Shown: positions 19,031 to 33,428 of the stretch, piece by piece | Numbering within the stretch: position 1 is the stretch's first letter | How the letters are laid out: the number at the start of each line of letters is the position of its first letter | Assembly (NCBI GenBank): GCA_017466275.1 | Contig: JAFTUL010000051.1 | Coordinates: 1-35,043 of the forward strand | Length of the DNA stretch: 35,043 nucleotides | Origin: Clostridia bacterium | GTDB taxonomy: Bacteria; Bacillota; Clostridia; UMGS1883 | Reading direction: 5' to 3' | Program-made: the position numbers and the translations under genes | The notes under the pieces: model-generated | The model's database searches: none | Told to the model about the DNA's origin: nothing | Seen by the model: the letters and a program-made list of their open reading frames with translations, nothing else

Positions 19031-19036
19031 TAAGTA

Positions 19037-19279
19037 CAGCGTTGAACGTGTGTAAGTAGAAAAGGCGTATCGCTTCCGAGAGAGGGGGAGTCACGGGCTG
19101 AAAGCTTCCCTGTAGTGTGTCTTTTTGAATTTCAGCACGGGAGCCCTCCGTGAAAAGCTGTGTGCGTTAAGCGGAGCGTGATACTGCGTTAATGTATAAA
19201 AGTGCAGGGCAATTTGCCTTGAATAAGGGTGGTACCGCGAGAACTCTCGTCCCTTTGTGGACGGGAGTCTTTTTGTTTG
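19037..19279 (+). promoter_or_regulatory. T-box riboswitch, phenylalanine specific
   Basis: A tRNA-sensing leader. The conserved T-box core AGGGTGGTACCGCG is at about 19226-19239, the Stem I distal-loop motif GGGCTGAAAGCTTCCC is at 19095-19110, and GCGTTAAGCGGAGCG-type joining sequences lie between. In the specifier region GAATTTCAGC the codon TTC is at 19131-19133 followed by A; even the alternative register (TTT) is a Phe codon, agreeing with pheST downstream. Uncharged tRNA-Phe should stabilise the antiterminator formed by the T-box and block the terminator at 19243-19275. Confidence 0.93.
19243..19275 (+). terminator. T-box regulatory terminator
   Basis: Ten-base-pair stem ACTCTCGTCC/GGACGGGAGT (19243-19252 with 19259-19268, one G-U pair), six-base loop, then CTTTTTG. 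It is the off state of the pheST T-box. Confidence 0.9.
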
Positions 19280-25624: not shown

Positions 25625-25637
25625 TTTTGTCTATCTT

Positions 25638-25667
25638 AATTCCCGTGTACAAACACGGGAATTTTTT
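25638..25667 (+). terminator. terminator between the cysteine-hydrolase gene and mltG
   Basis: Eleven-base-pair stem AATTCCCGTGT/ACACGGGAATT (25638-25648 with 25653-25663), four-base loop and a six-T tail (25662-25667). Only 31 bases separate it from the mltG ATG and I see no promoter there, so mltG may rely on read-through. Confidence 0.85.
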
Positions 25668-25698
25668 ACTTAAAATAAGAAATACGGAGATGATTTCA

Positions 25699-26709
25699 AT
25701 GAAGAAAAAAATCATAGTGGGTATTACTCTTGTAATTGCTTTGGTGGTGGCTTTTGTTGCTCTTACTATGTTTATGGAGTACACACGTACAAATTCCTCC
25801 GACAAAACTGTTACGGTGCAGATTCCCAAGGGTGCTTCTGAAAAAAAGATTGCTGAAATTCTTAAAGATAACGGAGTAATTGACTACGAAATCACTTTCC
25901 GCTTCAAAATGAAAAATTCTCCCTACCGCGGCAAGCTGAATTACGGAAAATTCGTGTTGAATAAGAATATGTGTCTTGATGACCTTATTGAAACTCTGGC
26001 AAAGCCCGGTGAATTTGAAAAAGGGATTACCATAACAATTCCCGAGGGTTACAGTGCTGAAAAAATAGCCTTGCTGTGTGAAAAAAAGGGCATATGCACT
26101 GCAGAAGAATTTCTGAAAGAGCTTTCCGAGGGTGCATTTAATAATGATTTTATAAAGGACATTCCCGATAAAGACGGTGTTAAATATAAGCTTCAGGGTT
26201 ATCTTTTCCCAAGCACATATAATTTCAGCAAGGATGCTGATGCATCTAAAGTTATAAACACACTTCTTTCCGAGTTCCAGACACAGTATAATAAAGTAAA
26301 GGATATGCTTCCCGAGGGAATGACTATGGCGGAGGCAATTAACCGTGCGGCACTTATTGAAAGGGAAGCGAAGATTGATTCTGAAAGGGAAATGATATCG
26401 GGTGTTATAGAAAACAGACTTAACATTGATATGATTCTCCAGATAGATGCCAGCGTTGTATATGCAATTTCCGACGGACTTTATGATGTTGACAGAGTGT
26501 TGTATAAGGATTTAGAGGTTGATTCTCCTTATAATACCTATAAGTTCAAGGGACTTCCTGCAGGGCCTATCTGTAACCCCGGTCTTGAATCAATCCGTGC
26601 GGCAATGAATCCGACCGAGCATAAATATCTTTACTATCATACAGATACTAATAAGAATGACGGAAATCATATTTTTAGCGAAAATTTTTCCCAGCATACG
26701 GCAAAATAA
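25699..26709 (+). CDS. mltG: endolytic transglycosylase MltG
   Basis: YceG-family lytic transglycosylase that cuts nascent glycan strands and sets their length. Residues 1-25 form a single N-terminal membrane anchor with positive-inside MKKK. A LysM-like domain (about 35-105, VQIPKGASEKKIAEILKDNG) precedes the catalytic domain, which has AALIEREA with catalytic E221 and LQIDASVVYA, then GLPAGPICNPGLESIRAAMNP. At 336 residues it is typical for Firmicutes. The ATG at 25699 has CGGAGATG upstream; in-frame starts further up lie in the terminator. Confidence 0.95.
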   Translation: MKKKIIVGITLVIALVVAFVALTMFMEYTRTNSSDKTVTVQIPKGASEKKIAEILKDNGVIDYEITFRFKMKNSPYRGKLNYGKFVLNKNMCLDDLIETLAKPGEFEKGITITIPEGYSAEKIALLCEKKGICTAEEFLKELSEGAFNNDFIKDIPDKDGVKYKLQGYLFPSTYNFSKDADASKVINTLLSEFQTQYNKVKDMLPEGMTMAEAINRAALIEREAKIDSEREMISGVIENRLNIDMILQIDASVVYAISDGLYDVDRVLYKDLEVDSPYNTYKFKGLPAGPICNPGLESIRAAMNPTEHKYLYYHTDTNKNDGNHIFSENFSQHTAK

Positions 26710-26721
26710 GGGATAAAAGCT

Positions 26722-26940
26722 ATGGAAAAATATATTGTAGACAGATTTGAAGAGGAATATCTGGTTCTTGAAAAAGAAACTGGAGAAACTCTTGATGTTC
26801 TCAAAAAAGAAATCCCCGATGCAAAAAAAGATGATGTAGTAATTTTTGAAAACGGGAAATATACTGTTGATAGAGAAGAAACAGAGGCACGCAAAAAAAT
26901 AATTGCAGAAAAATTGCGTAAACTATTTGAAAAGAAATAA
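26722..26940 (+). CDS. DUF3006 family protein
   Basis: A 72-residue cytoplasmic protein with the DUF3006 opening (M-x-Y-x-V-DRFE-x-x-Y-L-V-L-E) and a small beta-rich body ending in a lysine-rich helix. No enzymatic residues are known for the family. It lies 12 bases after mltG and probably shares its transcript. Its last codons carry the -35 of the mgtE promoter. Confidence 0.85.
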   Translation: MEKYIVDRFEEEYLVLEKETGETLDVLKKEIPDAKKDDVVIFENGKYTVDREETEARKKIIAEKLRKLFEKK

Positions 26941-26955
26941 ATTTTATGGTAAAAT
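26927..26955 (+). promoter_or_regulatory. promoter for the mgtE leader
   Basis: TTGAAA (26927-26932) inside the DUF3006 gene, 17-base spacer, TAAAAT (26950-26955) preceded by TGG (extended -10). The transcript would begin near 26962, giving a leader of about 150 bases. Confidence 0.6.
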
Positions 26956-26961
26956 AATATA

Positions 26962-27112
26962 AATACAATTTTTGTGAGGTGAGAAGAATGGACGCAGGAG
27001 GTAATAGTAAAATCGGACGAAGTATGCCTGACCGCGTTCATTTTTCGCGGTTATAGGCACCCTTTGTCCCTCAGACAGAATAAAAATATCATAATGAAAT
27101 GAGGGATTAGTC
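26962..27112 (+). promoter_or_regulatory. structured mgtE leader with sequestered ribosome site
   Basis: Two helices are visible. Hairpin A: TGCCT plus ACCGCG (27025-27029, 27031-27036) pair with CGCGGT plus AGGCA (27046-27051, 27055-27059), covering the last codons and stop of a small ORF. Hairpin B: TCCCTCA (27067-27073) pairs with TGAGGGA (27100-27106), which contains the mgtE Shine-Dalgarno GAGGG seven bases before its ATG. The same CCTCA can pair instead with TGAGG at 26975-26979, the ribosome site of the small ORF. It does not match the M-box consensus. Confidence 0.55.
26988..27056 (+). CDS. 22-codon leader ORF upstream of mgtE
   Basis: ATG at 26988, stop TAG at 27054-27056, predicted peptide beginning MDAGGNSKIGR and ending VHFSRL. 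A GAGGTGAG ribosome site stands four to eleven bases upstream, better than many real genes here. It lies between a candidate promoter and mgtE, and its 3' third is inside hairpin A, so ribosomes translating it would open that helix. I do not recognise the peptide; a cis-acting leader peptide is the likeliest role. It is too short for coding statistics. Confidence 0.5.
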   Translation: MDAGGNSKIGRSMPDRVHFSRL

Positions 27113-28468
27113 ATGGCGGAGAACAGAGATGTTCTTATCACCGAAATGATTATGCGTCTGATTGAAGGGAAGAAATACGCTTCAGTCCGTGATGCAATGG
27201 AAACAATGCACGCTGCCGACATTGCCGCAATTTTAGAGGAATGTCCCAAGGAGCAGGTGCCGCTTATTTTCAGACTTCTGCCCAAGGAGCTTGCGGCAGA
27301 AACCTTTGCTCAGATGGAGGAAGACCATCAGGAGCTTTTGATACAGAGCTTCAGCGACAGTGAACTTAAAGAGGTCGTTGACGAACTTTATGTAGACGAT
27401 GCCGCTGACCTTGTAGGTGAAATGCCTGCAAATGTTGTAAAAAGAATACTCAGGCAGGCAGACCCCGAAAAAAGAAAGCTTATTAACGAAATACTTAAAT
27501 ACCCCGAGGACAGTGCAGGAAGCATTATGACAACCGAGTATGTTTCCCTGCGTCCAGATATGACCGTCGAAGATGCCATAAAACGCATCAGAAGAACGGG
27601 TGTGGATAAGGAAACCATCAACACCTGCTATGTTACAAAGCAAAACAGAAAGCTTCTAGGTATAGTAACTATAAGAACACTTCTTCTTGCGGAAGAAAAT
27701 GCCACTATGCAGGAGCTTATGACAGAGGATGTAATATCTGCTCTTACAACTCAGGACCGTGAAGAGGTGGCTCTTGACTTTACAAAGTACGACCTTTCTG
27801 CAATGCCTGTTGTTGACGAGGAAAACCGTCTTGTCGGTATCGTTACCGTCGACGACGTTATGGATGTATTGCAGGAGGAAACTACCGAGGATATTGAGAA
27901 GATGGCGGCTATTATCCCACTTGACAAGCCCTATCTCAAAACGGCAGCGTTTAAAATGTTCCTTAGCCGTGTGCCGTGGCTTCTTATAATGATGCTGTCG
28001 GCAACTTTTACAGGACTAATTATCACGCACTATGAAACCGCACTTGCCGCAAATATAGTTCTTGTAGCAAGTATTCCCATGCTGATGTCAACGGGCGGTA
28101 ATGCAGGAAGCCAGTCGTCAGTTACGGTTATCCGCGGACTTTCAATTGGGGAGATAGAATTCCCCGACATTTTAAGAGTAATGTGGAAAGAAATCAGGGT
28201 AGCAATTCTTTGCGGACTTACGCTGGCAGTAGTTAGTTATTTTAAATTTATACTGTTTGACGGTGTAGGCTGGGATGTAGCTCTCGTAATATCGCTTACC
28301 CTTTTTGTAACGGTTGCCGTTGCGAAGATTGTAGGATGTACGCTTCCCATGATTGCAGACAAAATCGGATTTGACCCTGCAGTTATGGCAAGCCCCTTTA
28401 TAACAACAATTATTGACGCCGTTTCATTGGCGATATATGTAAATATAGCAATGAATCTATTGTTATAA
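27113..28468 (+). CDS. mgtE: magnesium transporter MgtE
   Basis: Dimeric Mg2+ channel of the inner membrane, gated by cytoplasmic Mg2+. At 451 residues with the standard order: the N domain of helical repeats (about 20-125, ADIAAILEECPKEQ and LVGEMPANVVKRIL), two CBS domains (about 135-250, AGSIMTTEYVSL and MPVVDEENRLVGIVTVDDV), a plug helix and five membrane helices. The selectivity region STGGNAGSQSS is present. Its ribosome site is in hairpin B of the leader described above, suggesting translational control. It ends in a clear terminator. Confidence 0.97.
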   Translation: MAENRDVLITEMIMRLIEGKKYASVRDAMETMHAADIAAILEECPKEQVPLIFRLLPKELAAETFAQMEEDHQELLIQSFSDSELKEVVDELYVDDAADLVGEMPANVVKRILRQADPEKRKLINEILKYPEDSAGSIMTTEYVSLRPDMTVEDAIKRIRRTGVDKETINTCYVTKQNRKLLGIVTIRTLLLAEENATMQELMTEDVISALTTQDREEVALDFTKYDLSAMPVVDEENRLVGIVTVDDVMDVLQEETTEDIEKMAAIIPLDKPYLKTAAFKMFLSRVPWLLIMMLSATFTGLIITHYETALAANIVLVASIPMLMSTGGNAGSQSSVTVIRGLSIGEIEFPDILRVMWKEIRVAILCGLTLAVVSYFKFILFDGVGWDVALVISLTLFVTVAVAKIVGCTLPMIADKIGFDPAVMASPFITTIIDAVSLAIYVNIAMNLLL

Positions 28469-33138: not shown

Positions 33139-33160
33139 TACAACGAATTGAATAGATTCA

Positions 33161-33341
33161 CGCAATGTGTCGTATATGCCGTGTGGGCATATGCGGTGAA
33201 AAGAGAATCGGGTGAGAATCCCGAGCGGAACTGCCGCTGTATGCGTTTGAGAGAATACGTCGTGACGAAAGTCGGTCACTGAGGAATTGGGAAGGCTGAC
33301 GTATTTTCGATTGAAAACGTAAGTCAGAAGACCTGCATTGT
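33161..33341 (+). promoter_or_regulatory. cobalamin (B12) riboswitch
   Basis: The conserved aptamer elements are in order: GGTGAAAAGAGAATCGGGTG (start 33195), GAATCCCGAGCGG, CTGCCGCTGTATGCG, AGTCGGTCACTGAGGAA (33270s), and the B12 box AAGTCAGAAGACCTGC (33321-33336). P1 is probably CAATG (33163-33167) with CATTG (33336-33340). Adenosyl- or related cobalamin binding should switch off the downstream ECF genes. Confidence 0.93.
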
Positions 33342-33428
33342 TGGTGTCACTTGTCGCTACAATTTTTAGCGTTGGCAGGTGGTTTGTGTTTGTTGTGCAA
33401 CAAATACAAAGATTTCACAGGCACACAG

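Follow-up and report, generated by a model that had tools for sequence, protein, structure and literature searches.

A conserved leader peptide and a predicted ribosome-position switch ahead of mgtE and other Mg2+ transporter genes in Clostridia

What controls mgtE in the stretch of Clostridia DNA analyzed here (contig JAFTUL010000051.1, 35,043 nt, hereafter the window)? The gene, at 27113-28468 on the + strand, encodes a 451-residue magnesium transporter (TIGR00400, 469.5 bits against a cut-off of 232.75), and its Shine-Dalgarno (SD) sequence, GAGGGA, lies at 27101-27106 on the same strand, 6 nt 5' of the ATG at 27113. Mg2+ sensing by a leader peptide is established in enterobacteria (mgtL), and the M-box is the known regulator of mgtE in Firmicutes. 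A sequence-only reading of the region had proposed a third arrangement, in which a translated leader peptide is combined with a switchable hairpin over the ribosome site of mgtE. We find this core idea strongly supported by conservation, in-frame codons, SD sequestration, and covariation; the observation is real, and it is more extensive than that reading recognized.

The layout ahead of the gene is largely as had been described, with all of the features on the + strand. The extended -10 promoter is confirmed as a sigma-A type promoter at 26927-26955, with TTGAAA and TAAAAT separated by 17 nt, 10/12 consensus matches, and a TG before the second hexamer. Transcription is therefore expected to start near 26962, upstream of the leader ORF. 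The 22-codon ORF with a strong ribosome site, also claimed earlier, holds up as well: it spans 26988-27056, encodes MDAGGNSKIGRSMPDRVHFSRL, and is preceded by the SD sequence GAGGTGAG (26976-26983), of which an AGGTGA-like form is kept at the same spacing in relatives. No intrinsic terminator-like site was found in 26850-27200. Directly upstream, positions 25627-26941 hold an mltG-like gene (TIGR00247) and a 72-residue ORF with no NCBIfam match, the end of which is overlapped by the -35 element.

The leader ORF is kept ahead of mgtE through the order of the window and across Oscillospirales-type Clostridia, in dozens of related gut bacteria. When relatives were searched with DNA, the first matches were the SD and start of the small ORF. 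Of the 36 stretches returned by a genome-wide pattern search, 33 are leaders that precede a Mg2+ transporter gene. With a second, looser pattern, 39 of 394 genomes of Evtepia's order gave a match, and the reversed control pattern gave 0; among 30 loci read from these matches, 28 precede a Mg2+ transporter and 2 lie inside a longer gene. Pattern matches at L025, L029, L040, L180, and L181 were discarded because they lie within longer genes or have no downstream transporter. To escape pattern bias, mgtE was searched by protein and the upstream DNA was taken regardless of its content, which gave 26 of 28 genomes in the window's order and 91 of 147 in Evtepia's. The test set consisted of 97 mgtE upstream regions from the Evtepia-order search and its seed genomes. 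By a loose rule (an SD, ATG or GTG, D at codon 2, a small residue at codon 3, and R or H by codon 16), a leader ORF is present in 44 of these 97 regions, against 2 in the reverse complement and 0-2 in shuffles; no leader was detected in the majority of the Oscillospirales mgtE regions sampled. The genome collections are mostly metagenome-assembled, and the leader is also available from a named strain, Evtepia gabavorous KLE1738 (NZ_QQRQ01000006.1), at L028.

Most of the leader peptides start (M/V)-D-(A/G/S)-(G/S), with M-D-A-G in the window, although the detection rule requires D at codon 2 and so accounts in part for the MD(A/G) start. The start codon is ATG (49) or GTG (9). Peptide length ranges from 20 to 48 residues, and the sequence is variable after residue ∼14, with no evident common membrane segment. 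Comparison of these copies indicates that coding constraint acts on the small ORF. Although the first CGA lies anywhere from 9 to 45 nt from the start codon, it is in frame in 57 of 69 cases (p 5e-17); CGAAGT, likewise at variable spacing, is in frame in 28/28, and indels within the leader ORF come in multiples of three. Among the 55 representatives (L001-L179 set), 47 have CGA as their first Arg codon, against 3.3% of the Arg codons of mgtE.

Which genes lie behind the leader bears on what it may sense. Nearly all of the independently found copies precede a Mg2+ transporter gene, encoding either of two MgtE subtypes or, twice, an MgtA-type ATPase. A divergent mgtE (TIGR00400) is downstream of the leader at L053, and similar leaders are found at L174-L179. 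At L174 and L176-L179, related leaders accompany the second MgtE subtype, which is divergent (∼25% identity to the MgtE of the window), MDGSSHSRR... and MDSSSCDRS.... At L022 the leader stands ahead of the gene for an MgtA-family Mg2+ P-type ATPase (TIGR01524, 782.8 bits, above the cut-off), and at L197 ahead of an MgtA-type gene fragment that is cut by the locus end and has two Mg2+ ATPase models as its best matches. Within L197 (1260-2069) the order is an M-box (99 bits), a terminator-like hairpin, tandem leaders MDAGSRRK... and MESGSKRS..., and the MgtA-type ATPase gene; the transcript thus appears to carry two stacked kinds of Mg2+ control. Because the leader precedes both MgtE and MgtA genes, it tracks Mg2+ import, and we infer from the controlled genes, together with the M-box co-occurrence at one locus, that Mg2+ is the signal.

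Is the leader itself an M-box? The sequence-only reading had named an Rfam M-box match as evidence against its proposal. The window contains no M-box (RF00380) at the gathering score, and 26900-27180 contains none at E<=10; the same tool detects M-boxes at other loci. M-boxes are absent from the other leader loci scanned, L197 aside, and are found upstream of leaderless mgtE in four genomes (L101, L126, L130, L154). Identification of the mgtE leader as an M-box or other Rfam family was rejected, there being no Rfam match in the interval. Elsewhere in the window, a T-box leader (RF00230, 110 bits) lies at 19033-19257 on the + strand, with an ORF beginning at 19192, and a Cobalamin riboswitch (RF00174, 71 bits) lies at 33148-33354, upstream of an ORF at 33351.

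The leader RNA is instead predicted to form a three-stem switch (T, B, and C). In the minimum free energy fold, the 5' arm of stem T (26983-26995, + strand), which covers the SD-start spacer, the start codon, and codons 2-3, pairs with GCGTTCATTTTTC at 27034-27046 and masks the start codon of the leader ORF (P=0.80 without a ribosome in the window). T pairing is kept at GTG-start leaders, e.g., L157, L079, and L081. Stem T was also considered as an intrinsic terminator on account of its U run, and this was rejected: the U run pairs with the pre-start spacer and is absent in most relatives, and no terminator was found. Hairpin B (27066-27107, + strand) joins GTCCCTCA (27066-27073) to TGAGGGAT (27100-27107) and, as had been claimed, buries the mgtE SD in the computed folds. 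The same folds agree with the proposed hairpin A over the last codons and stop of the small ORF (27025-27059, + strand; 27025-27036 with 27046-27052 and 27055-27059), which is nested in stem C and exclusive with T. Stem C, which is short in the window (8 bp), pairs GGACGAAG from the Gly10-Arg11-Ser12 codon region (27015-27022, + strand) with CTTTGTCC (27062-27069, + strand), of which 27066-27069 is common to the 5' arm of B.

Complementarity was assessed as duplex energy against dinucleotide shuffles in ∼55 representatives with <80% identity. Enrichment was seen for T, start codon with ORF end (Fisher 4e-15, control 0.73), for sequestration of the mgtE SD by B (Fisher 2e-13, control 0.01), and for C, ORF codons with the stretch 3' of the ORF stop (Fisher 2e-12, controls 0.92 and 0.0025), combined P values that overstate independence because related sequences are pooled and the best-duplex score is used. 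Of the features that the sequence-only reading had proposed to check in related Clostridia, the peptide (44/97 against 0-2) and B-type SD masking recur. Outside the window's order, hairpin A within C is not clear, and it was rejected as a general family feature. Covariation in C is strong: own partners beat swapped partners (z -7.6), with a statistic of -3.84 against -0.67 +/- 0.40 for shuffled partners. The pairs include GGACGAAG:CUUUGUCC in the window, GGCCGAU:AUCGGCC (L087), CCCCGAA:UUCGGGG (L111), ACCGAA:UUCGGU (L084), and UUUGGGAAAAG:CUUUUCCCAAA (L131). At least three bases are common to the 3' arm of C and the 5' arm of B in 43 of 54 leaders, where 30.5 would be expected.

The exclusive pairing that the sequence-only reading had placed at the heart of the switch, the anti-SD CCTCA (27069-27073) with the TGAGG of the small ORF's own SD (26975-26979), was not supported. 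It amounts to 5 bp with an ensemble probability of 0.001, and relatives are not enriched for it (Fisher 0.51). We rejected it as the switch; the anti-SD strand is contested instead by the mgtE SD (B) and by the ORF codons (C). In the computed folds, the competitors of A and B are T and C, which were absent from the earlier account.

The predicted effect of a ribosome on these folds depends on where it sits. The structural evidence is wholly computational, and the ribosome was modeled as a simple unpaired block. The two folds of the window are near-equal, at -40.6 kcal/mol for T+B and -40.0 kcal/mol for C+A (with C forced). With no ribosome, T and B have probabilities of 0.80 and 0.82, and the mgtE SD is 12% open. 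Placing the ribosome at the start, or with any of codons 2-4 in the P site, raises C to 0.99, lowers B to 0.02, and leaves the SD 64% open. A ribosome on codons 6-14 restores B to 0.94-0.98, and opening of the SD does not exceed 4%. Intermediate values are reached at codons 16-18, where P(B) is ∼0.4-0.5, before codons 20-22 close the SD again; this fall in P(B) means that a simple open/close picture is not clean. Across the family, the mgtE SD is more accessible when the ribosome sits at the start (0.31) than when it sits on codons 5-15 (0.16; 35 up and 3 down, p 1e-8), a difference that is lost once the ORF body is shuffled.

Taken as a model, these computations suggest that the element is probably a leader-peptide, mgtL-like translational attenuator of Mg2+ transporter genes that responds to ribosome position. 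Without a ribosome, the T+B fold would keep mgtE closed. If a ribosome is held at the start or on the first four codons (M-D-A-G), T would be prevented, C and hairpin A could form, B would break, and mgtE would open; a ribosome that has advanced to codons 6-14 would cover C, letting B form again and close mgtE. The conserved CGA lies within codons 6-14 and may slow the ribosome there; our guess as to why the codon is nearly fixed is that CGA is decoded slowly and so parks the ribosome over the C arm. The sensor would then be the ribosome itself, lingering on the first codons in low Mg2+ (mgtE on) and moving on when Mg2+ is ample (mgtE off), where both the Mg2+ response and its direction are deduced from the controlled genes. 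More tentatively, the M-D-A-G codons and the near-fixed rare CGA might form a ribosomal Mg2+ gauge across Oscillospirales-type Clostridia, replacing the M-box or stacked on it, in which a pause at the start would open the transporter gene and progress to CGA would close it.

The same folds can be read in a way closer to E. coli mgtL, with low Mg2+ causing early abort rather than lingering: the ORF body would be left free, C would form, and mgtE would open, and full translation in high Mg2+ would close it. The acidic residue at position 2 (E in the second of the two L197 leaders) fits such drop-off, as does the closure of mgtE in silico by ribosomes on the ORF body, and mgtL does employ early acidic residues and low-Mg2+ drop-off (PMC11282234). 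However, the ribosome-free window RNA adopts T+B with mgtE closed, and only one of the first 14 residues of the window peptide is acidic, with no EPDP or proline run in the peptide, so we regard drop-off as possible but doubtful. It is also conceivable, if unlikely, that the leader senses some other state of translation, such as initiation rate or CGA decoding, and that Mg2+ transporters respond because ribosomes need Mg2+. An almost fixed CGA without an established Mg2+ link would suit this explanation; the specificity for Mg2+ transporter genes and the M-box 5' of the tandem leaders at L197 argue against it.

A Mg2+-binding riboswitch, in which folding of a T/C pseudoknot depends on Mg2+ and the ORF is incidental, is less probable still. 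The T and C pairings do cross each other, and pseudoknots are often Mg2+-dependent. Against this stand the coding-type constraint on the frame, start codon, SD, and CGA codon of the ORF; a strongly conserved unpaired core was not seen; and a pseudoknot freeing the transporter gene at high Mg2+ would regulate it the wrong way round. Direct ion binding, which the sequence-only reading had allowed, found no specific support. Finally, a functional small protein (e.g., an MgtE partner) with secondary RNA pairing is very improbable because, although the peptide start is kept in many genera, the residues after ∼14 and the total length vary (20-48 aa) with no evident common membrane segment, codons are constrained for pairing, and unrelated transporters are served by the same leader.

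If the ribosome-position attenuator is correct, it would be a second independent case of the ribosome as a Mg2+ gauge, with a leader that is widespread in Clostridia, apparently unrelated, different in output (ribosome-site masking), and marked by a near-fixed CGA codon. No published leader peptide of mgtE was found in the literature searched, with most subscription papers outside its scope. In mode of action, the nearest known case is the mgtL leader of mgtA, from which ribosomes drop off early when Mg2+ is low (PMC11282234). As in Salmonella and E. coli mgtL, a short ORF with an early acidic residue lies 5' of a Mg2+ transporter gene and control by ribosome position is proposed, translation being argued here from coding constraint. 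Unlike mgtL, the window peptide MDAGGNSKIGRSMPDRVHFSRL has no EPDP motif or proline-rich N-terminus, and the predicted output is SD sequestration rather than a Rho-dependent terminator (PMC11282234). The mgtE motif SRC-65-1, a riboswitch candidate reported in Thioalkalivibrio only (PMC11109978), is likewise upstream of mgtE and has the SD and start codon of the gene at its stem base; compared by description, it differs in taxonomic range. The M-box (ykoK, RF00380) resembles the leader in governing mgtE or mgtA in related genomes, but the mgtE leader element includes a small ORF under coding constraint. In erm-type attenuators, a leader ORF is combined with alternative stems, the resting fold hides the SD of the gene, and a held ribosome opens it. 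Here, too, the computed alternative stems share the strand that hides the SD; unlike erm-type systems, where drug-induced stalling occurs within the leader, opening is predicted for a ribosome on the first codons, and the downstream genes encode Mg2+ transporters.
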